Below are positions 20,516 through 59,073 of a stretch of DNA of 64,000 bases, piece after piece. Under the pieces are notes generated by a model. It worked only from the letters and a program-made list of their open reading frames with translations. It ran no database searches and was not told where the DNA came from. The position numbers and the translations under genes are program-made. This stretch comes from an uncultured Spirochaetales bacterium (GTDB lineage: Bacteria; Spirochaetota; Spirochaetia; Sphaerochaetales; Sphaerochaetaceae). How positions within the stretch are numbered: position 1 is the stretch's first letter; the number at the start of each line of letters is the position of its first letter. The stretch is from assembly GCA_949288415.1 (NCBI GenBank), contig CASEKE010000009.1, positions 1 through 64,000 of the forward strand, given 5' to 3'.

Positions 20516-20640
20516 TAACATTTTTGAAATAATCTGTTTTGACGCTATTTTTTATACAATATTGCAAAAATGCATATATATAATCCGGCATTGTGCATGT
20601 CTATTGACAGGCGAGGCGGTTTCGCCACATCATTATCCAA

Positions 20641-20691
20641 AGCAAAGGCGCTCGCCATGGGAATACCAGGGTGGGCGCCTTTCTCTTTTTT
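20641..20691 (+). promoter_or_regulatory. pyrG leader: hexaloop hairpin and attenuator terminator
   Basis: A 13-bp stem with two G-T pairs (20644-20656 with 20670-20682) is followed by CTCTTTTTT and sits directly before the pyrG ribosome binding site, so it can only act on pyrG. Its 5' arm overlaps a small hairpin, AGC-[AAAGGC]-GCT at 20641-20652, whose loop has A1 and G4. A second loop, AGGGTG (20668-20673), has only a 2-bp CC/GG stem. TTGACA at 20604-20609 with CATCAT/CATTAT about 18-21 bases later may be the promoter. An upstream TATAAT at 20579-20584 is an alternative. Confidence 0.6.
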
Positions 20692-20709: not shown

Positions 20710-22311
20710 ATGAGAAAGCATATCTTCATCACCGGCGGAGTGGTGTCGGGCCTCGGCAAGGGCATTGTGGCGGCAAGCCTGGGAATGCTGCTGAAGGCTC
20801 GCGGATTCAGGGTCGCCGCGCAGAAGCTGGATCCATATATGAACGTGGATCCCGGTACCATGAGTCCGTACCAGCACGGAGAAGTGTTCGTGACGGAGGA
20901 CGGGAGCGAGACCGATCTCGACCTCGGACACTACGAGAGGTTCATCGACGAGGACCTGAACAGGTTCTCAAATCTGACGAGCGGAAGAATATACAAGAGC
21001 GTGATCGACAGGGAGCGCAGGGGTGAATATCTGGGGCAGACGGTACAGATAATCCCCCATGTGACCAACGAGATAAAGAACGCGATATTCTCCCTCGGTC
21101 GCGAGACCGGGGCGGAGATAGTGATAACCGAGATAGGCGGGACGATAGGCGATATCGAGAGCCAGCCGTTTCTGGAGGCTACCAGGGAGATAAGGACGGA
21201 ACTCGGCAGGGAGGACACGCTTTTCGTCCATGTGGTGCTCGTTCCATACCTGAAGTGTTCGTTGGAGCACAAGACGAAACCCGCGCAGCACAGCGTCCAT
21301 GAACTGCAGGGCATGGGTATAATGCCGGATGTGATAATCGCCAGATCCGACGAGGTGCTTGGGGACGAGATCCTTTCGAAGCTCGCGCTTTTCTGCAATG
21401 CGGACCGACAGGGGATAATCGCGGAGGAGACTCTGGACAGCATATACAAGGTTCCTGTGCAGCTTTACGACCGTGGACTGGACGCTTACGTGATGAAAAG
21501 GCTCTCCCTCCCGTCCCGTGAAATCGATCTATCCTCTTGGAAGGCGATGCTGGACAGGATGGACTTGGCAAGGGCCGACGTCGAGATCGCCATAGTCGGA
21601 AAGTATACTGCATTGCACGATGCATATCTTTCGGTGATCGAAAGCCTCAAGCATGCGGGAATAGCTCTCGGGGCCAGGGTACATATCAGATGGGTGGAGA
21701 GCGAGGCTGTGGAAAAGGACGGCGCAGAATGCCACCTTTCCGATGTCGATGCGATACTCGTGCCCGGAGGATTTGGTCAGAGAGGCATGGAAGGAATGGT
21801 CGAAGCCGCATGCTATGCCCGAAAGAATGACGTGCCTTATTTCGGAATTTGCCTAGGAATGCAGATTGCCGTCATCGAGGTCGCCCGCGATCTCGCCGGA
21901 CTGGATGGCGCTAACTCTAGGGAATTCGATCCCGATACTCCGTATCCTGTGATCGACTTGATGGAGGACCAGGAAAAGACGGGCGAAAAGGGCGGTACGA
22001 TGCGCCTCGGATCGTATCCGTGCAGAGTCGTCGAAGGCACACTGCTGCATAGGTTATACGGAAAGGCGGAAACGGCGGAGCGGCACAGACACAGGTACGA
22101 GGTGTCACGCCGGTTCAGAAAGGCCCTTTCGGATGCAGGTGTCGTGTTCTCGGGGCTCAGTCCGGACGGTACCCTCGTAGAGGCTATGGAGATTCCTGCG
22201 AACCGGTTCTTCGTGGCGGTGCAGTTCCATCCCGAGTTCAAGAGCCGTCCGAACCGGCCGCATCCGATCTTCCTCGGCTTCGTTGAAAGCGCGCTGAGCC
22301 ATCGCACATGA
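20710..22311 (+). CDS. pyrG: CTP synthase
   Basis: The 533-residue enzyme aminates UTP to CTP using glutamine. The N-terminal synthetase domain has the P-loop SGLGKG at residues 13-18, KLDPYMNVDPGTM and EIGGTIGDIES. The C-terminal class I amidotransferase domain has the nucleophile Cys381 in GICLGMQ and the His507/Glu509 pair in QFHPEFKSRP. The start follows GGGAGGAAGC. It is a single gene with divergent argG upstream. The leader terminator implies that expression is set by antitermination. Confidence 0.96.
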   Translation: MRKHIFITGGVVSGLGKGIVAASLGMLLKARGFRVAAQKLDPYMNVDPGTMSPYQHGEVFVTEDGSETDLDLGHYERFIDEDLNRFSNLTSGRIYKSVIDRERRGEYLGQTVQIIPHVTNEIKNAIFSLGRETGAEIVITEIGGTIGDIESQPFLEATREIRTELGREDTLFVHVVLVPYLKCSLEHKTKPAQHSVHELQGMGIMPDVIIARSDEVLGDEILSKLALFCNADRQGIIAEETLDSIYKVPVQLYDRGLDAYVMKRLSLPSREIDLSSWKAMLDRMDLARADVEIAIVGKYTALHDAYLSVIESLKHAGIALGARVHIRWVESEAVEKDGAECHLSDVDAILVPGGFGQRGMEGMVEAACYARKNDVPYFGICLGMQIAVIEVARDLAGLDGANSREFDPDTPYPVIDLMEDQEKTGEKGGTMRLGSYPCRVVEGTLLHRLYGKAETAERHRHRYEVSRRFRKALSDAGVVFSGLSPDGTLVEAMEIPANRFFVAVQFHPEFKSRPNRPHPIFLGFVESALSHRT

Positions 22312-23942: not shown

Positions 23943-26033
23943 TCATCGTACGGAGAACATCAGCTCACCGTAGCTGGGCAGTGGCCAGAATTCCTTCGAC
24001 GTCAGGCTCTCTGCCGCATCCGCGGCTTCCCTGAGCCTGTCCATCGACGGTATTAGATCCTCTGCTATCTCCGTGGCCTGGGCCGCCTTGTCGCCGATGG
24101 CTTTGATCCTGGCGATCTTGGCCTGCATCGCCCTCGCATTCTCGTCGATCCTTTCCTCCGCGTCCGTCAGCTCCTCTATAAGTCTTTCCTCATAGCTGCA
24201 TGATCCAGTTCCTGTATCTTTCCTTCTGAGAAGTCTTTCCAGAAACAAGTCAAGCTGGTGTCCGACGGCCGGGAGTATCATCCGCCTAGCCATATCGATC
24301 ATCGTGGCGGCTTCTATCAGTACCGTCCTGGAATAGTTCTCAAGCGTTATTTCGGTCCTTGATTCAAGCTCCGCCAACGAGTATATCCCGGACTCTGTGA
24401 GCATCTTCACGTTCTTTTCGTCCAAAAGATGCACGATGGCTTCCGGAGTGGTCCTCATCTCGAGCAATCCCCGTCTTTTCGCCTCTGACTTCCAAGACTC
24501 GTCGTACCCGTTGCCGTTGAAGATTATCCTCCTGTGCTTTCGTATGGTCTCCCTTATCAGAACCCTGAGCTCCGCATCGAAGTTCTCTGCTGCCTCGAGC
24601 CTATCGGCAAATATCCTGAGGGAATTTGCCACGGCGCTGTTGAGCATGATGTTGGCGCAGGCGATGCTGTTGGATGATCCGAGCATGCGGAATTCGAACT
24701 TGTTTCCCGTGAAAGCGAACGGGCTGGTCCTGTTTCTGTCGGTTGTATCCTTCTGGAAGCGAGGCAGTACGTCGGCCCCTAGCATCATCTGTACTTTTCC
24801 ATGCCCTTTGTATGGCCTGTCGTCCGCGATCGAATCGAGTATCTCCATGAGTTCCTCTCCGACGAATATCGAGACTATCGCCGGGGGCGCCTCGTTTGCT
24901 CCGAGCCTGTGGTCGTTTCCCGCCGTCGCGACGGACAGCCTCAGAAGATCCTGATAGTCGTCGACAGCCTTGATCACTGCAGAGAGAAACAGCAAAAACT
25001 GCGCATTCTCGTACGGTGTATCGCCGGGAGAGAGCAGGTTGATTCCTGTATCGGTGGCAATCGACCAGTTGTTGTGTTTTCCCGATCCGTTGACTCCCTT
25101 GAAGGGTTTCTCGTGCAGCAGGCACACGAGACCGTGGCGTGAGGCTATCTTCTGCAGCATCTCCATGGTCAGCTGGTTCTGGTCGCATGCCCTGTTTGTC
25201 GTCGTGAAGATCGGTGCAAGCTCGTGCTGTGCCGGTGCAACTTCGTTGTGCTCGGTCTTGGCGAGGATGCCAAGTTTCCATAGTTCCTCGTCGACATCCT
25301 CCATGAATGCCTTGACCCGGGGTTTTATGGAACCGAAGTAGTGGTCCTCCAGTTCCTGCCCCTTGGGACTCATAGCTCCGAAAAGGGTCCTTCCCGTGTA
25401 GATGAGATCCGGACGTCTTATGTAGAGTTCCTCGTCTATCAGAAAGTATTCCTGTTCCGCTCCGACGGACGTCACCACGTGCTTTGCATCTGTATTTCCG
25501 AAAAGACGCAGTATGCGCAGGGCTTCCCTGCCGAGAGCTTCCATGCTTCTCAGCAGCGGCGTCTTCTTGTCCAATGCCTCACCGCCATACGAACAGAATG
25601 CGGTAGGGATGTAGAGCGTCCTGTCCTTTATGAACGCATAGCTCGTCGGGTCCCATGCCGTATATCCCCTGGCTTCGAACGTGGCCCTTAGCCCTCCGGA
25701 CGGGAACGAGGATGCGTCAGGTTCGCCCTTGATCAACTCTTTTCCGGAGAATTCCATTATCACTCCGCCGTCAGGGGAAGGCGCGATGAAGCTCTCGTGT
25801 TTTTCGGCGGTTATGCCTGTAAGCGGCTGGAACCAGTGGGTAAAGTGGGTCGCTCCATGTTCTATTGCCCATTCCTTCATTGTATTTGCTACCGAGTTCG
25901 CAACATTTATATCTAATTTCATTCCATTTTCGATGGTATTTTCCAGCGATTTGAAAACTTGAGAGGACAATCTTGCCCTCATTTCGCGCAGATCGAACAC
26001 GAGGGAACCGAAAGATTCAGGGACGCTTTTCAT
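23943..26033 (-). CDS. glnN: Type III glutamine synthetase
   Basis: The 696-residue enzyme has the length of GSIII (about 700, versus 350-470 for types I and II). It makes glutamine from glutamate, ammonia and ATP as a large dodecamer. GSIII-specific features are [41 protein letters not shown] and the [12 protein letters not shown] glycine loop. The start at 26033 follows AAGGAGGAAG. Immediately upstream lie a leader terminator and a TTGACA/TAAAAG promoter. It diverges from the glutamate synthase operon. A second, type I enzyme is encoded in that operon. Confidence 0.95.
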
Positions 26034-26053
26034 TTTTTCTTCCTCCTTGAAGC

Positions 26054-26110
26054 AAAAAAAAAGACAAGGAATCCTGGCCATGGCCCAAGACATCCTTGTC
26101 TACATGTCTT
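26054..26110 (-). promoter_or_regulatory. glnN leader: hexaloop hairpin and attenuator terminator
   Basis: On the minus strand the terminator pairs AGACAAGGA (26101-26093) with TCCTTGTCT (26070-26062) and is followed by eight T. Its 5' arm is also part of a small hairpin AGAC-[AAGGAT]-GTCT (26101-26088) whose loop has A1 and G4. An alternative 7-bp hairpin, AAGACAT with ATGTCTT (26110-26104 with 26093-26087), would also block the terminator. The promoter is TTGACA (26142-26137) with TAAAAG 18 bases on. A clear second A1/G4 hairpin was not found. Confidence 0.6.
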
Positions 26111-26157: not shown

Positions 26158-26250
26158 TTGACAAAAAGCATTGCAAGGAAGTAGGATGCGAAAAACGGGC
26201 AAGGACGCTCATTTCAGGGTAGAACTCTGAAGTGACGTCCTTTTTTCTTT
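26158..26250 (+). promoter_or_regulatory. Glutamate synthase leader: dual hexaloops and attenuator
   Basis: The promoter is TTGACA (26158-26163), an 18-bp spacer and TAGGAT. The leader then holds GGGC-[AAGGAC]-GCTC (26197-26210) and, two bases later, TTC-[AGGGTA]-GAA (26213-26224). Both six-base loops have A1 and G4, the ANTAR target pattern. Overlapping both is a 16-bp terminator stem with one bulged C (26201-26217 with 26227-26242), followed by TTTTCTTTT. The ribosome binding site AAGGGGG and ATG come directly after. Confidence 0.68.
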
Positions 26251-26268: not shown

Positions 26269-27360
26269 ATGCAGAAAGAGGGAACGATCAGAATTCCGGC
26301 CGGGTGCGCAATCGCTGCAATGATATCGAGGAAAGGAAGGAAGATGGACGGAGGAACGATTGCACGTTCGATGAAGACAATGCATGAAAGGTCGAACGGG
26401 CTTGGCGGCGGCTTTGCCGGGTACGGGATATATCCGGAGTACAGGGACTGCTATGCCTTCCACATTTTCTTCAACGGCCGAGCGGAGAGGAAGGACACCG
26501 AAGTCTTTCTGAAAGAAAAATTCGACATTGTGAAAAGCGAGCTTCTGAGGACGCGGAAGACGAAGAAGATAACGGACGAGCCGGTGATATGGCGATATTT
26601 CCTTCTTCCGCTGCGGTCAAAGCTCGCCGAGAGCCAGAAGAGCGAGGACGATTTCGTCGCGGAGGCCGTGACGCGGATCAATACGTTCCATCACGGAGCG
26701 TACGTGTTCTCGAGCGGAAAGGACATGGGGGTGTTCAAGGCAGTCGGATATCCGGAGGATGTAGGGGAGTTCTATCGTCTGGACGAGTACGAGGCATATT
26801 CCTGGACGGCTCATGGGAGATATCCCACGAACACTCCAGGATGGTGGGCCGGATCCCATCCTTTCTCCCTTCTGGACTTTTCGGTCGTGCACAATGGAGA
26901 GATATCTAGCTACGATGCGAATCGCCGCTTCGTGGAGATGTTCGGATACAGGTGCAATCTGAAAACGGACACTGAGGTCATGACGTACATGATGGACTAC
27001 CTCATAAGGAGAGAAGGCCTTACCGTAAGGGAAGCCGCCTGCGTCATCGCGGCTCCATTCTGGTCCACGATAGAGAAAAAGGAGAAGAGAGAAGCCGAGG
27101 TCCTGAAGTATCTCAGGATGCGCTTTCCATCCCTTCTTGTCACAGGTCCGTTCTCGATCATATTCGCTTTTACAGGCGGCCTCATGGCGCTGAACGACCG
27201 TCTAAAGCTCCGTGGCCTCGTTGCCGGCAGCAACGATGACATGGTGTATATTGCGAGCGAGGAAGCCGCTCTTTTTGCGATGGACAATGCGGTTTCCGAC
27301 ATCGTCCATCCGCGAGGGGGAGAACCTTTCATAGTCGAAGTGGAGGAGAAAGCCATATGA
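26269..27360 (+). CDS. Glutamate synthase, glutamine amidotransferase subunit (split type)
   Basis: The 363-residue protein matches the class II amidotransferase domain that is the N-terminal third of bacterial GltB but is a separate gene in archaea, Thermotogae and some clostridia. It releases ammonia from glutamine. The catalytic Cys is residue 13 (AGCAIAAM), not residue 2, so a 12-residue leader must be removed. NGLGGGFAGYGIYPEY, HGRYPTNTPGWW and VVHNGEISSYDANR follow the family pattern. It overlaps the next gene by 4 nt and is the first gene of the operon, behind the ANTAR-type leader. Confidence 0.9.
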   Translation: MQKEGTIRIPAGCAIAAMISRKGRKMDGGTIARSMKTMHERSNGLGGGFAGYGIYPEYRDCYAFHIFFNGRAERKDTEVFLKEKFDIVKSELLRTRKTKKITDEPVIWRYFLLPLRSKLAESQKSEDDFVAEAVTRINTFHHGAYVFSSGKDMGVFKAVGYPEDVGEFYRLDEYEAYSWTAHGRYPTNTPGWWAGSHPFSLLDFSVVHNGEISSYDANRRFVEMFGYRCNLKTDTEVMTYMMDYLIRREGLTVREAACVIAAPFWSTIEKKEKREAEVLKYLRMRFPSLLVTGPFSIIFAFTGGLMALNDRLKLRGLVAGSNDDMVYIASEEAALFAMDNAVSDIVHPRGGEPFIVEVEEKAI

Positions 27361-28865
27361 TTGCAGGTCTTGATTACATCAAACCGGAATACGAGGTCGT
27401 GAGGAAGAGTTCCTGCATCCTTTGCGGCCGATGCGTCAGGGAATGCGCCGCAGGTGTCCACTCTGTCGTGAAGGATTCAAAAGCCATAGTCTCCGACGAC
27501 TCGAAGTGCGTCGCATGCCAGAGGTGTGCAGCATTCTGTCCCGTGGGGGCGCTCAGGATAGAGAAGGTAAAAGTGGGCATGAAGGAGGACGGGAACTGGA
27601 ATTCGTCGCTGCTTAGGCAGAACATCCTGCAGGCATCCAGCGGAGGAATACTGCTTTCATCCATGGGCAGCAGAAGTTCGGTTCCCGTATATTTCGACCG
27701 CCTGACCATCAATGCGAGCCAGGTCACAAACCCTCCGATCGATCCATTGAGGGAGCCTATGGAGACGGCTGTCAATCTCGGACGGAGGAATGTCGCAACA
27801 AAGAGAAACGAATCCGGCAGGCTAGTACCCGATCTACCGCCGTATATCCATCTTTCAATGCCGCTGATGTTCTCGGCGATGAGCTATGGCAGCATCAGCA
27901 AAAATGCACATATCGCTCTGGCAGGCGCAGCGGAGGAGCTCGGGATCATGTACAATACCGGCGAGGGCGGCCTGATCGACGATCTGGTGCGCTACGGCGG
28001 CAATACCGTAGTCCAGGTGGCCTCCGGCAGATTCGGGGTCCATCCCGGATATCTGAGGGCCGGAGCGGCGATCGAGATCAAGATGGGGCAGGGGGCAAAG
28101 CCCGGCATCGGCGGCCATCTTCCCGGGTCGAAGATAGTCGGGGACATCGCCCGCACCAGGATGATTCCCGAGCGTTCGGATGCGATCTCTCCGGCACCAC
28201 ATCACGACATATATTCCATAGAGGATCTCAGGATGCTGGTCTCTTCGCTCAAGGAGGCGACAGGCTACGAAAAGCCTGTAATAGTCAAAGTGGCGGCCGT
28301 AAACAACATTGCTGCGATCGCAAGCGGGATAGCCCGAAGCGGTGCCGACATCATTGCGATCGACGGAGCAAGAGGTGGAACGGGAGCTGCCCCGACCAGG
28401 GTAAGGGACAATGTGGGAATCCCGATAGAGCTCGCGATCGCTTCCGTCGATCAGCGGCTCAGGGAGGAAAGGATAAGGGACAGAGTCTCCATAGTGGCGG
28501 GAGGAAGCATAAGGAGTTCGGCGGATGTCGTGAAGGCCCTCTGTCTGGGTGCGGACTGCTGCTATGTTGCAACTGCCGCATTGATTGCGATGGGGTGCCA
28601 TCTCTGCCGTAGCTGCATGGGCGGAAATTGCTCGTGGGGAATCGCAACGCAGCGGCCGGACCTTGTTTCGAGGCTCGACCCCAAGGTCGCCAAGGAACGC
28701 TTGGTTAGGCTTATGCGAGCATGGCAGAGGGAGATAAAGGAGTTCATGGGATGCCTTGGAATAAACTCAATAGAAGCTCTTGTAGGCAATCGTGCAATGT
28801 TGCGCGCCGTCGGAATGACGGAGAGAGAACTTGAAGTTCTCGGTGTCCTGCAGGCCGGGGAATAG
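27357..28865 (+). CDS. Glutamate synthase, FMN-binding subunit with ferredoxin domain
   Basis: The 502-residue protein has two 4Fe-4S clusters at the N-terminus (Cys20, 23, 26, 30 and Cys50, 53, 56, 60) and then the FMN-binding glutamate synthase barrel (about residues 100-490). Motifs seen are MSYGSISKNAHIALA, NTGEGG, GRFGVHPGYL, KMGQGAKPG, GARGGTGAAP and the 3Fe-4S-type cysteines in CHLCRSCMGGNC. It makes glutamate from 2-oxoglutarate with ammonia delivered by the amidotransferase subunit. Built-in ferredoxin clusters suggest reduced ferredoxin as a possible electron donor; no gltD is present here. Confidence 0.92.
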   Translation: MIAGLDYIKPEYEVVRKSSCILCGRCVRECAAGVHSVVKDSKAIVSDDSKCVACQRCAAFCPVGALRIEKVKVGMKEDGNWNSSLLRQNILQASSGGILLSSMGSRSSVPVYFDRLTINASQVTNPPIDPLREPMETAVNLGRRNVATKRNESGRLVPDLPPYIHLSMPLMFSAMSYGSISKNAHIALAGAAEELGIMYNTGEGGLIDDLVRYGGNTVVQVASGRFGVHPGYLRAGAAIEIKMGQGAKPGIGGHLPGSKIVGDIARTRMIPERSDAISPAPHHDIYSIEDLRMLVSSLKEATGYEKPVIVKVAAVNNIAAIASGIARSGADIIAIDGARGGTGAAPTRVRDNVGIPIELAIASVDQRLREERIRDRVSIVAGGSIRSSADVVKALCLGADCCYVATAALIAMGCHLCRSCMGGNCSWGIATQRPDLVSRLDPKVAKERLVRLMRAWQREIKEFMGCLGINSIEALVGNRAMLRAVGMTERELEVLGVLQAGE

Positions 28866-28874
28866 GAGCGATTT

Positions 28875-29594
28875 ATGAAGGAAATAGACGCAAAGGATAT
28901 CGATTACAGAAATTTGAATGAAATGATCCGCAGTTCAGAGGACAAGGAAGTACGGCTTACAAATGTCCTTGGGCAACGCTTCATAGGAACTGCGCTGGCA
29001 AGCGGAACCATTTATGTGGAAGGAATCCCTGGTCCGGCCATGGGAAGCTATCTGGACGGCGGTTGCATATTTGCCTGCTTGGACGCCTCCGATGCCATCG
29101 GAGATACGATGAACGATGGGCAGATCGTCGTATCAGGTTCGGTCGGCGATGTCACCGGGTATGCGATGAGAGGCGGACGGATATTCATCGGAAAAGATGC
29201 CGGATATCGGGTCGGGATACACATGAAGGAGTACGGCGACAAGATTCCTTCCATAGTCATAGGCGGGAATGCAGGAAGCTTCCTTGCCGAGTATCAGGCA
29301 GGCGGGCTGATTGTCGTGCTTTCGCTCTACGGCGGCGAGAAACTTGGTTTCTTCCCCTGCACAGGCATGCATGGGGGAAGAGTCTATGTGAGGGGAGGCG
29401 TAGATCGCTCCCTTTTCCCGGACTACGTGTCCATACGGATTGCCTCGAAGGCCGATATGGAGCCGATTATTTCGCTGCTGGTGGATTTTGCCTCTTTCTT
29501 TTCGTATGCCCTGGATGATATCCTGTCGGAGGAATTCACTTTGATCGAGCCTATGGAGACGGATGTGTACGGCGGTCTCTATGTGGCCGACTAG
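28875..29594 (+). CDS. Glutamate synthase, GXGXG-domain subunit
   Basis: The 239-residue protein is the C-terminal beta-helix (GXGXG) domain of GltB as a separate gene. Its glycine-rich repeats are visible as GNAGSF, GGRIFIGKDAGYRVG, GGLIVVLSLYGG and GMHGGRVYVRGG. The domain is structural in the complete enzyme. It follows the FMN subunit by 9 bases, and the ribosome binding site GGAG precedes the ATG. Together the three genes make one complete alpha subunit. Confidence 0.92.
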   Translation: MKEIDAKDIDYRNLNEMIRSSEDKEVRLTNVLGQRFIGTALASGTIYVEGIPGPAMGSYLDGGCIFACLDASDAIGDTMNDGQIVVSGSVGDVTGYAMRGGRIFIGKDAGYRVGIHMKEYGDKIPSIVIGGNAGSFLAEYQAGGLIVVLSLYGGEKLGFFPCTGMHGGRVYVRGGVDRSLFPDYVSIRIASKADMEPIISLLVDFASFFSYALDDILSEEFTLIEPMETDVYGGLYVAD

Positions 29595-29602
29595 GAGGGA
29601 AT

Positions 29603-30817
29603 ATGACCGGTTATACGAAGGAGGAAGTGCTTGAATACGTACGCGACGAGGACGTGAAATTCGTACGCCTTGCGTTCAGCGATGCCTATGGAGTACAGAA
29701 AAACGTTTCGATAATGGCCCAGGAGCTGGAGAGAGCATTCGAATGCGGCATCGCAATAGACGGCTCAGCCATCCCCGGGTTCGGGCATCTGGTAGAGTCC
29801 GATCTTCTCCTGTTCCCGGATCCGGCCACGCTTTCCGTCCTGCCCTGGAGGCCCGAGCACGGGAAGGTCGTGAGAATGTATTCCGAGGTCAGGTATCCCG
29901 ACGGACGCGTGTTCGAGTGCGATTCCAGAAGTCTTCTGAAGAGTGCCGTGGCAGATGCCGAAGCTTCCGGATACGAGTTCACTTTCGGCTCCGAGCTTGA
30001 GTTCTACCTGTTCCTTCTGGACGAGCATGGCGAACGTACATCCGTTCCGCAGGACAGGGCCACCTATATGGACATAGCCCCCGAGGACAAGGGAGAAAAC
30101 GTCAGACGCGAAGTATGTCTCACGCTGGAAAGGATGGGAATAAAGCCGGAGAGCAGCCATCATGAGGAAGGACCGGGACAGAACGAGATAGATTTCCGCT
30201 ATTCCGATGCGCTGTCCGCGGCGGACGATGCCTTCACGTTCAAGGCCGTGGTTAGCACGATTGCAGGTCGCAACGGTCTGTACGCCGATTTTTCTCCGCG
30301 CCCTCTTGCCGACCACCCCGGAAACGGATATCACATCAACCTCTCTCTTGCGGAAGGTGCCGACGATGAGGCGATCGGCCATATGATAGCAGGTCTCATG
30401 AGGCGGATCAGGGAGATCTCGCTGTTCCTCGATCCATGCGAGGAGTCCTACTCGCGTCTGGGACGCGACAAGGCGCCATCCTGGATATCCTGGTCCAGGG
30501 GAAACCGTTCGCAGCTCATCCGCGTTCCATATGCGGAGGGGGAGTACCACAGAGTGGAACTGAGAAGTCCCGACCCCGGAGTCAATTTCTACCTCGTCTT
30601 TTCGCTCGTGATCAGGGCGGCCCTGGAAGGACTCGAGCAGAAGCTTGCAGTTCCGGCAAGCCTCGATTGCGACCTTTACAAGGCTCCGAAGGAAATTCTC
30701 GATGGCCTTTCCCGCCTCCCTCTATCTCTGGACGAGGCCAGGAAGGAAGCCATGTCGAGCGGCTTCGTCGAAAAGTATGTTCCCAAGGCCCTGCTCGAGG
30801 CGTATCTGGCCAGGTAG
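29603..30817 (+). CDS. glnA: Type I glutamine synthetase
   Basis: The 404-residue enzyme has the compact length of GSI-alpha-like proteins (no adenylylation loop insert). It has the N-terminal beta-grasp domain (residues 1-100) with DGSAIPGFG, then the catalytic domain. Motifs seen are GSELEFYLF, HHEEGPGQNEIDF, GNGYHINLSL (ATP-binding), NRSQLIRVPY and VELRSPDPGVNFYL. It is co-transcribed with the split glutamate synthase (8-base gap) and ANTAR genes, which gives a complete GS-GOGAT cycle in one operon. Control by adenylylation is unlikely because the tyrosine-bearing loop is not seen. Confidence 0.93.
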   Translation: MTGYTKEEVLEYVRDEDVKFVRLAFSDAYGVQKNVSIMAQELERAFECGIAIDGSAIPGFGHLVESDLLLFPDPATLSVLPWRPEHGKVVRMYSEVRYPDGRVFECDSRSLLKSAVADAEASGYEFTFGSELEFYLFLLDEHGERTSVPQDRATYMDIAPEDKGENVRREVCLTLERMGIKPESSHHEEGPGQNEIDFRYSDALSAADDAFTFKAVVSTIAGRNGLYADFSPRPLADHPGNGYHINLSLAEGADDEAIGHMIAGLMRRIREISLFLDPCEESYSRLGRDKAPSWISWSRGNRSQLIRVPYAEGEYHRVELRSPDPGVNFYLVFSLVIRAALEGLEQKLAVPASLDCDLYKAPKEILDGLSRLPLSLDEARKEAMSSGFVEKYVPKALLEAYLAR

Positions 30818-30829
30818 GAGAATTTCTGC

Positions 30830-31423
30830 ATGGACCTCAGAGAACGGATATACAGCGTACTGATCGTCTGCTCGAACGAAAGCTACAGGCTTTCGCTCCG
30901 TTCTCTTCTCTCGTCGTCCGAATACGGACCGGTGGATGCGGAATCGAGCCTTTCGAATGCCAGGCGGATTCTTCTCGAGAAGGACTACGACATCGTCATA
31001 GTCGACCATCCTGATGCCCTAGGAGATGCAATCGGATTCGCCTGCGACGAGTCTGACGGCAATTCCACGATCCTCGTGCTTGTTCCCGCGTCGGAATACG
31101 ACGATTCGTTCTCTCGCCTGATGGAAAACGGCGTGTTCGCAGTCTCGAAGCCTCTTTCCCGGACTTCTTTCCTGCGTTGCATGGACATGATGAGGACCGT
31201 CCGCATAAGGCTCGGTCGTGCCGAGAGGATCACCGAGAGCCTGGAGGAGAAGATGGCAGAACTGAGGGCTGTTTCACGGGCGAAACTGCTGCTGATGGAG
31301 AAGACCGGGCTTGGGGAGGAGGCGGCCCACCGTCATCTGGAGAAGCTTGCCATGAACAACGGACTGAGCAAGATCGAGGTCGCGCGGCTCGTCATAGACA
31401 AATTCGGCCGGAAAAATTTTTGA
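30830..31423 (+). CDS. ANTAR-domain antiterminator with receiver-like domain
   Basis: The 197-residue protein has a receiver-like fold at residues 1-125 and an ANTAR RNA-binding domain at about 141-192 (MAELRAVSRAKLLLMEKTG, then AAHRHLEKLAMNNG and IEVARLVID). ANTAR proteins bind paired hairpins with six-base loops in nascent leaders and stop terminators from forming. The receiver keeps the phospho-acceptor Asp position (IVIVDHPD) and the Lys (VSKPLSR), but the usual acidic pair after strand 1 is replaced (VLIVCSNE). It may therefore not be controlled by ordinary phosphorylation. It lies 12 bases after glnA. Similar glnA-linked ANTAR genes (NitR/GlnR type) are known in clostridia. Confidence 0.9.
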   Translation: MDLRERIYSVLIVCSNESYRLSLRSLLSSSEYGPVDAESSLSNARRILLEKDYDIVIVDHPDALGDAIGFACDESDGNSTILVLVPASEYDDSFSRLMENGVFAVSKPLSRTSFLRCMDMMRTVRIRLGRAERITESLEEKMAELRAVSRAKLLLMEKTGLGEEAAHRHLEKLAMNNGLSKIEVARLVIDKFGRKNF

Positions 31424-57420: not shown

Positions 57421-59073
57421 CTATCTTCTTTCCAGGAGAAACGCTTCATACGGCTTCAGGACCATGCTTTCTTGTGCGCTTCTTTTGCCGTTTGAAATGA
57501 CCGACATCCAATTGCCTGCCGGCAGGGAGTACCTCCGTGGGCTGTCCGAGAAGTTCAGAAGAACCAGAAATTCCTTGCCGTATCCCATTCTCGAGAATGC
57601 GAATATGCAATCGTCGCCTGTGTTGTGGAATTCCATGCTTCCTCTTCTCAGACATGGCTCTTTTTTCCTTATTTCGATCAGTTTCCGGTAGAAGGAGAGT
57701 ATGGATTCATCGTCAGCCAGAGAACTTTCGACGTTTATCGTACGATAGTTCCCGTTGATTTCCAGCCATGGTTTCCCTGTCGTGAAGCCCGCGCCCTCTT
57801 CGTTTTTCCATTGCATCGGAGTTCTCGCATTGTCCCTGCTGATTGCGGCGGCTATGCGCAGTGCCTCCTCCTCCGACTTTCCTTCGAGCAATGCCGTACG
57901 ATAGGCGTTTCTCGTATCTATGTCATTGTAGCAGCCGATCGAAGGGTAGTGCACGTCCGTCATACCGATCTCCTCCCCCTGGAAGATGAAAGGCGTTCCG
58001 GGCAGCGTCTGCATGAGCATGGCCAACATCTTTGCCGAGTCGATCCTGTACGTTGTGTCGTTCCCATATAGCGAGACCTGTCTGGGCTTGTCGTGGTTGG
58101 AAAGGAATCGGGCCCACCAGCCGTCGTCCTTCATAGTTTCATATGACGCGACGATGTCTCTCTTCATCTTGGCGGGGGACCAAGTCCCGATCTCGACTAT
58201 CGGAGGAACGAACGGTATCGCCATCTTGAATTCCTTCCTATCCTCGCTGCAGTAGTCGCGGTAGTCGGAAAGCTTCTTTATGTTGACTTCTCCGACTGCG
58301 AATGCATCGTACTCGTCCAGGATTCGGCATATGTCCTTTATTATGGCGTGTGTACCGGGCCTGTTCGAGATGGCATCCATGTCAAGCGCATATCCTTCGG
58401 CGTTGAGCGTGTTCGTCGAATCGCAGAAGTCGCCTTTGTCCAGATAGCTTATTGCGTCCACTCTGAAGCCGTCCACTCCGAAGTCGAGCCAGCGCCTTAT
58501 CATGGCGAAGATGCTCTTTCTCACTCCTTCGCTTTTCCAGTTCAGATCGGGTTGCTCCTTTGCGAACATGTGAAGATAGTACTGTCCCCTTTCCTCGCAG
58601 TATTCCCATGCGCTGCCGCCGAAGCAAGACGCCCAGTTGTTCGGTTCCTTACCGTCCTTGGGGTCTTTCCAGATGTAATAGTCGCTGTATTGTCCGGTAC
58701 GCGATTTTCTCGATTCCCTGAACCATTCGTGGAAACTGGATGTATGGTTAACCACCAGATCCATTATGAGGCAGATTCCCCGTCCATGTGCCTCGTCCCT
58801 AAGCCTTTCAAGATCCTCGATCGTCCCGAATACGGGATCGATGCGATCGTAGTCGGCTATGTCGTAACCGTTGTCGTAGCAGGGGGAGACATATATGGGG
58901 GAGAGCCATATGGCATCGATTCCCAGTTTCTCCAGATAGTCGAGCTTCGAGATTATGCCCGGAAGATCGCCTATTCCGTCCCCGTTAGAATCCATGAAGC
59001 TTTTCGGATAGATCTGGTAGATTTCCAGATCCTTGAACCAGTCCTTGCTTCTTTTTTCCCTTGTATGTTCCAT
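57421..59073 (-). CDS. GH13 alpha-glucosidase (oligo-1,6-glucosidase type)
   Basis: The 550-residue cytoplasmic enzyme hydrolyses alpha-1,6 or alpha-1,4 glucosidic bonds in short oligosaccharides such as isomaltose, or trehalose-6-phosphate in some relatives. GH13 regions are all present: DLVVNHTS, GFRVDAIS with the nucleophile Asp near residue 205, AVGEVN with the acid Glu near 260, and FLSNHDKPR. The QIYPKSFMDSNGDGIGDL start is typical of subfamilies 29/31. The start at 59073 follows GGGAGGGG, and the open frame before it is non-coding. It is a single gene; no sugar transporter is adjacent. Confidence 0.93.
   Translation of the reverse strand: MEHTREKRSKDWFKDLEIYQIYPKSFMDSNGDGIGDLPGIISKLDYLEKLGIDAIWLSPIYVSPCYDNGYDIADYDRIDPVFGTIEDLERLRDEAHGRGICLIMDLVVNHTSSFHEWFRESRKSRTGQYSDYYIWKDPKDGKEPNNWASCFGGSAWEYCEERGQYYLHMFAKEQPDLNWKSEGVRKSIFAMIRRWLDFGVDGFRVDAISYLDKGDFCDSTNTLNAEGYALDMDAISNRPGTHAIIKDICRILDEYDAFAVGEVNIKKLSDYRDYCSEDRKEFKMAIPFVPPIVEIGTWSPAKMKRDIVASYETMKDDGWWARFLSNHDKPRQVSLYGNDTTYRIDSAKMLAMLMQTLPGTPFIFQGEEIGMTDVHYPSIGCYNDIDTRNAYRTALLEGKSEEEALRIAAAISRDNARTPMQWKNEEGAGFTTGKPWLEINGNYRTINVESSLADDESILSFYRKLIEIRKKEPCLRRGSMEFHNTGDDCIFAFSRMGYGKEFLVLLNFSDSPRRYSLPAGNWMSVISNGKRSAQESMVLKPYEAFLLERR

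Follow-up and report, generated by a model that had tools for sequence, protein, structure and literature searches.

A single-hexaloop ANTAR attenuator at the 5' end of the mRNA is the probable reading, at roughly four in five, of the leader that precedes the glutamate synthase (glt) operon of an uncultured Spirochaetales bacterium. A hexaloop hairpin, conserved among relatives in loop and stem, overlaps the 5' arm of an intrinsic terminator just downstream of a promoter, and the ANTAR protein that would bind it is encoded at the end of the same operon. The preliminary description of this DNA had recognized an ANTAR target and attenuator, which is supported by the identity of the loop, by covariation, by an ANTAR gene in the same operon, by co-occurrence of RNA and protein over 139 genomes and by a nitrogen regulon. 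The textbook two-loop arrangement that it proposed is given up, since the downstream loop is unconserved and the place of an upstream partner is taken by the promoter.

The window, a stretch of 64,000 nucleotides, carries on its forward strand glutamate synthase as three ORFs (class II amidotransferase, FMN/4Fe-4S Glu_synthase and GXGXG; 26269-29594), the glutamine synthetase gene glnA (29603-30817) and a gene for an ANTAR protein with a degenerate receiver (30830-31423), all assigned by Pfam, the last through PF03861. The genes glnN and asnB are oriented opposite to the glt operon. Three leaders of the same kind had been noted in the window, and three, presumably the same ones, were recovered with a covariance model built from 27 leaders, those of glt (26194-26245, plus strand, 28.8 bits), glnN (26057-26104, minus strand) and pyrG (20637-20685, plus strand, 22.7 bits). 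The second target, glnN, encodes a type III glutamine synthetase on the minus strand (23943-26033, with the start taken as the ATG at 26033; the Pfam GSIII_N match lies on the longer ORF 23943-26093), and its leader bears the hairpin AGAC[AAGGAT]GTCT (26088-26101) on a terminator ending in T9, behind a promoter with -35 TTGACA (26142-26137) and -10 TAAAAG (26118-26113). The third target, pyrG, is a CTP synthase gene assigned by Pfam (20710-22311, plus strand), whose leader bears AGC[AAAGGC]GCT (20641-20652), a 3-bp hairpin on a terminator. A fourth model match (17.5 bits), at 57986-58040, falls within a coding gene reading as an alpha-amylase-type enzyme and was dismissed as chance.

In the glt leader, the -35 box TTGACA (26158-26163) and the -10 box TAGGAT (26182-26187) are spaced by 18 nt, and a promoter scan predicts the transcription start at about 26193-26196. 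The first hairpin, GGGC[AAGGAC]GCTC, follows at 26197-26210 (5' arm 26197-26200, loop 26201-26206, 3' arm 26207-26210), and after a gap of two bases comes a second motif, TTC (26213-26215), AGGGTA (26216-26221) and GAA (26222-26224); the letters, the gap and the positions of both are as first described. The intrinsic terminator occupies 26201-26246, with the U-tract at 26241-26246 and a folding energy of -24 to -26 kcal/mol in RNAfold. The terminator itself, with its six T, agrees with the earlier account, while the stem, given there as 16 bp, comes to about 18-19 bp (26201-26242) when the leader 26194-26247 is folded. Since the terminator takes the loop and 3' arm of the first hairpin as its own 5' arm, the two structures exclude each other. 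A search of the window against Rfam at the gathering threshold gave zero matches. Two A1/G4 hexaloops at most 15 nt apart with an overlapping terminator, sought over the whole window on both strands, gave one match in each of two out of ten shuffles; the pattern is thus uncommon and by itself not decisive.

Leaders of glt, glnA, glnN and asnB were extracted from about 80 ANTAR loci of the same family as the window genome, and an A1/G4 hexaloop hairpin overlapping the 5' arm of an intrinsic terminator was found in 110 distinct leaders, which are related by descent and hence dependent samples. The scan required A1, G4 and at least 3 bp and favoured A2 among competing hairpins, leaving the closing C-G pair, R5 and Y6 free; all 110 conform to C[AANGRY]G, that is A1, A2, G4, R5 and Y6 closed by C-G. 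Loop and closing pair agree with AGCAANGRRGCUY, the P2 consensus of EutV, and the element conforms to the published definition of dual-hexaloop ANTAR targets (PMC3369931) in having an A1/G4 hexaloop on a stem of 3 bp or more, A1 and G4 being partly set by construction, and in overlapping an intrinsic terminator.

The first hairpin stands far above chance in these relatives, as its earlier proposal would have it, and its stem covaries. Paired variants include GGAC/GTCC, CAGC/GCTG, GAAC/GTTC, CAAC/GTTG and TGAGC/GTTCA, and among 30 diverse sequences double changes occur in four of the five stem pairs (41 cells, against 17 ± 4 in shuffles). In the same sequences, 90% of the cells pair, against 31-45% with the partners slid, the innermost three pairs being imposed by the scan rule. 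In 103 of the 110 leaders, the terminator stem does not include the 5' arm, so that terminator pairing fails to account for the complementarity of this arm. The distance from loop A1 to the U-tract is 21-58 nt. The element is present in 54 of 57 leaders before glt, and the three lacking it have no detected terminator either; many glnA and glnN genes are without it, often, as an uncounted impression from gene maps, in operon-internal positions. In three genomes close to the window (L039, L040 and L052), the terminator and hairpin of glt are lost and those of the divergent glnN are retained. The glnN leader of L061 (near 4707-4387, minus strand) has two one-loop attenuators in series, each with its own terminator.

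Textbook ANTAR targets have a hairpin P1 located 5-12 nt upstream of P2, and deletion of P1 abolished induction (PMC3369931). The glt leader of the window was first described as a two-loop target in which AGGGTA, at the terminator tip, serves as second loop, and its sequence fits this arrangement. An A1/G4 hexaloop of any kind stands at that place in 14 of 51 glt leaders, which exceeds the shuffles; 13 of the 14 are the terminator tips of one clade (AGAGAT, AGTGAT, AGTGGT and AAAGAT), the remaining one being the window itself. Against it, such a loop is missing from the other 37 leaders and broken within that very clade, where close relatives have AGTAAT, AGCAAT or seven-base tips. The TTC[AGGGTA]GAA 12-mer alone is predicted to have no stable fold (0.0 kcal/mol), and its linker is only 2 nt, although shortening to 3 nt already abolished induction in eutP (PMC3369931). 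Because relatives break the second loop and keep the terminator and the first hairpin, this reading is rejected as very improbable, and TTC[AGGGTA]GAA is, on the comparison with relatives, a 3-bp coincidence in the terminator tip. The alignment of related leaders that had been proposed as a check, with covariation sought in both stems, comes out in favour of the first stem and against the second loop.

The partner loop could instead lie upstream, with the transcription start farther up. A candidate P1, TTGC[AAGGAA]GTAG (26171-26184), does fold, and its loop resembles the consensus; it has no counterpart in relatives and sits inside the promoter, between the -35 and -10 boxes, where it would stay untranscribed. 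Relatives have a promoter at the same place. TTGAC occurs 35-55 nt 5' of the loop in 80 of the 110 leaders, against 2.0 ± 1.3 in shuffled sequences and none in an equal stretch farther up, and a -35/-10 pair at that distance in 83 (1.2 when shuffled); no clear promoter is apparent there in a minority of leaders. The position of the box suggests a start of the RNA close to the hairpin. In most cases 11-19 nt separate the -10 box from loop A1, so that the predicted start falls near the 5' arm of the hairpin, too close for a P1 to fit in front of it in nearly all leaders. P1-like hairpins themselves are seen upstream in 4 of 110 leaders against 4.7 by chance, so that the upstream hairpin of the dual definition (PMC3369931) does not rise above background. 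The identical rule, applied as a positive control to the loci of 23 EutV relatives, found P1 at 22 of 25 eut sites (1.7 by chance) and hence detects P1 where it is present. In other spirochaete families, P1-like hairpins occur in 4 of 17 leaders against 1.1 by chance, a small excess that is incompletely explained. An upstream P1 has, in our estimate, about one chance in twenty, and the window leader is, as far as sequence comparison tells, a one-loop element and not a dual one.

The leader might also be a real attenuator that responds to a different reader than the ANTAR protein, or that works by RNA folding alone, as ANTAR binding is deduced from comparison and five genomes carry the RNA with no detected ANTAR gene. 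The covariance model, run over 139 genomes of the family at E <= 0.01, matched a leader in 82 of the 87 genomes that have an ANTAR gene, against 5 of the 52 that lack one (Fisher p 1.7e-25, a value too small given shared ancestry). The five exceptions are drafts that are 76-92% complete, and the contig of one (G099), probably also those of G108 and G007 by position, stops before the expected ANTAR site. ANTAR follows directly after glnA in 72 of 80 loci, and the match at 30830-31423 is the sole one detected in the window genome. Together with the fit of loop and closing pair to the EutV consensus, this leaves a different reader, or none, highly improbable. That an ordinary terminator carries a chance hexaloop is the least credible account of all, for although short motifs are common and two of the ten shuffles gave a match, it is contradicted by the conservation, by covariation outside the terminator stem and by the ANTAR link.

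The window ANTAR protein scores 52.5 bits against PF03861 (curated cut-off 27.3) and groups by sequence with AmiR, Rv1626 and EutV, its best PDB relatives. Of the EutV residues that contact the loop, K149 and E160 are the same in all 79 relatives, and R142 is not conserved. Tyr164 of EutV, which stacks on the flipped G4, is replaced by His in 79 of 79 relatives. AmiR (PDB 1qo0) also has His at this position and shares the atypical receiver, but it is regulated by AmiC and has a dual-hairpin target, amiE (PMC3369931). A Pfam search of the window protein found no receiver match, and the combination of acidic pair and acceptor Asp that marks a phosphorylatable receiver of the EutV type is incomplete, as the acidic pair is lost and the acceptor Asp is kept. 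The acceptor is Asn in 39 of the 79 relatives. With the acidic pair lost and the acceptor so often Asn, these sequences make control by phosphorylation unlikely for much of the group. The degenerate receivers, in the window and in relatives, always occur beside glnA.

For the single-hexaloop attenuator, the following course of events is proposed. Transcription would begin at the hairpin (stem-C[AANGRY]G-stem) or a few bases 5' of its stem, and the free RNA would fold into the terminator and stop ahead of the glt operon. We infer that the active ANTAR protein grips the loop of the nascent hairpin and keeps its 3' arm out of the terminator, that antitermination results and, as to the sign and nature of the signal, that the protein is active in nitrogen-limited cells. 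With the terminator blocked, glt, glnA and the regulator itself would be transcribed, and since the regulator lies inside the operon, the operon would be self-amplifying. The same type of leader would act on glnN and pyrG of the window. As the sole loop is made first and the U-tract lies 21-58 nt beyond it, the protein would have to bind fast enough alone or be brought by another recruiter. By analogy with EutV, where antitermination in vivo depends on both loops (PMC3369931), a single loop may be insufficient.

The genes behind such leaders point to a nitrogen regulon comprising GOGAT, glnA, glnN, asnB, pyrG and amt. Model matches away from the ANTAR locus precede 14 glt, 14 asnB, 3 glnN and 1 pyrG gene, further 3 ammonium transporters with a C-terminal PII domain, and one each of a sodium/solute symporter, an M20 peptidase and an ATP-grasp protein. 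The three transporters with the fused PII domain, each with a one-loop leader upstream, are L274:726-2549, L279:777-2450 and L281:128-1981. Two types of asnB, about 40% or about 60% identical to that of the window, carry the same leader in different genomes, one type in L257, L262, L266, L272, L284, L286, L287 and L289, the other in L254, L259, L261, L270, L277 and L292.

Comparable leaders with one loop are present in other families of the same class of spirochaetes. The model also found them in Firmicute drafts (Lachnospiraceae, Eubacteriaceae and Selenomonadaceae), before glnN, glt and asnB as identified by BLAST, and before genes that read by eye as amt, glutamate dehydrogenase, dapF and others; the same rule found no P1 in these one-loop leaders, and a Veillonella eut leader, also matched by the model, does have P1. 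In one Selenomonadaceae draft (L330), two A1/G4 hexaloop terminators stand in series, about 74 nt apart, before an amt-like gene. In Clostridium, a NitR-type ANTAR lies beside glnA; the position next to glnA and the nitrogen targets are alike, and the glnA-linked loci of Lachnospiraceae and Eubacteriaceae analysed here are of the one-loop form. From these few genomes, the single-loop form seems to go with glutamine-synthetase-linked ANTARs and not with spirochaetes alone. A bolder proposal, which we put forward tentatively and at somewhat below even odds, is that of a separate and widespread ANTAR class in at least two phyla, in which one hexaloop would be enough because the hairpin is the first RNA made; it would coordinate the whole nitrogen-assimilation regulon, and its ANTAR protein would be regulated through contact with a metabolic partner, such as the adjacently encoded glutamine synthetase or PII, rather than by phosphorylation.

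ANTAR control of glutamate synthase genes is already known as a prediction, since the GOGAT genes of Desulfotomaculum were listed as ANTAR substrates in a study that does not mention spirochaetes (PMC3369931). The attenuators of a GOGAT regulon are thus shared, but theirs came from a dual-hairpin model and here one hairpin is seen. Compared with the EutV-controlled eut leaders of Enterococcus, Listeria and Clostridium (PMC3369931, PMC8934654), the leaders share the A1/G4 hexaloop, the closing C-G, the overlap with the 5' arm of the terminator, an RR-ANTAR protein and the nitrogen theme. The eut leaders differ in having two loops, both needed, on a 5-12 nt linker and a phosphorylated receiver, whereas here one loop at the predicted mRNA start goes with a degenerate receiver. 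Closest in form are the single-hexaloop sites of Walshe et al. (the EutX extra loop and sites in Mycobacterium; PMC8934654), which likewise treat one A1/G4 loop as the minimal ANTAR site but are proposed for settings free of the time limit set by a transcribing polymerase, while the single loop here lies on a terminator. In published searches for ANTAR targets, two hairpins were built into the model or the curation, so that a one-loop class would have been excluded. One-loop terminator leaders were not found described in the passages covered of the openly available ANTAR and hexaloop literature, nor was a nitrogen-control circuit of this kind in spirochaetes in the literature searched.

Walshe et al. 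(PMC8934654) found that an EutV dimer engages a single hexaloop at a time, and they proposed that P1 recruits the protein and passes it on to P2. The puzzle stated for EutV is that only one hexaloop is bound at once, yet antitermination needs both. The conserved one-loop terminator leaders suggest that two loops are no general requirement, and, as short templates from nature, they could serve to find out why. For the spirochaetes themselves, these leaders point to a nitrogen-control circuit.
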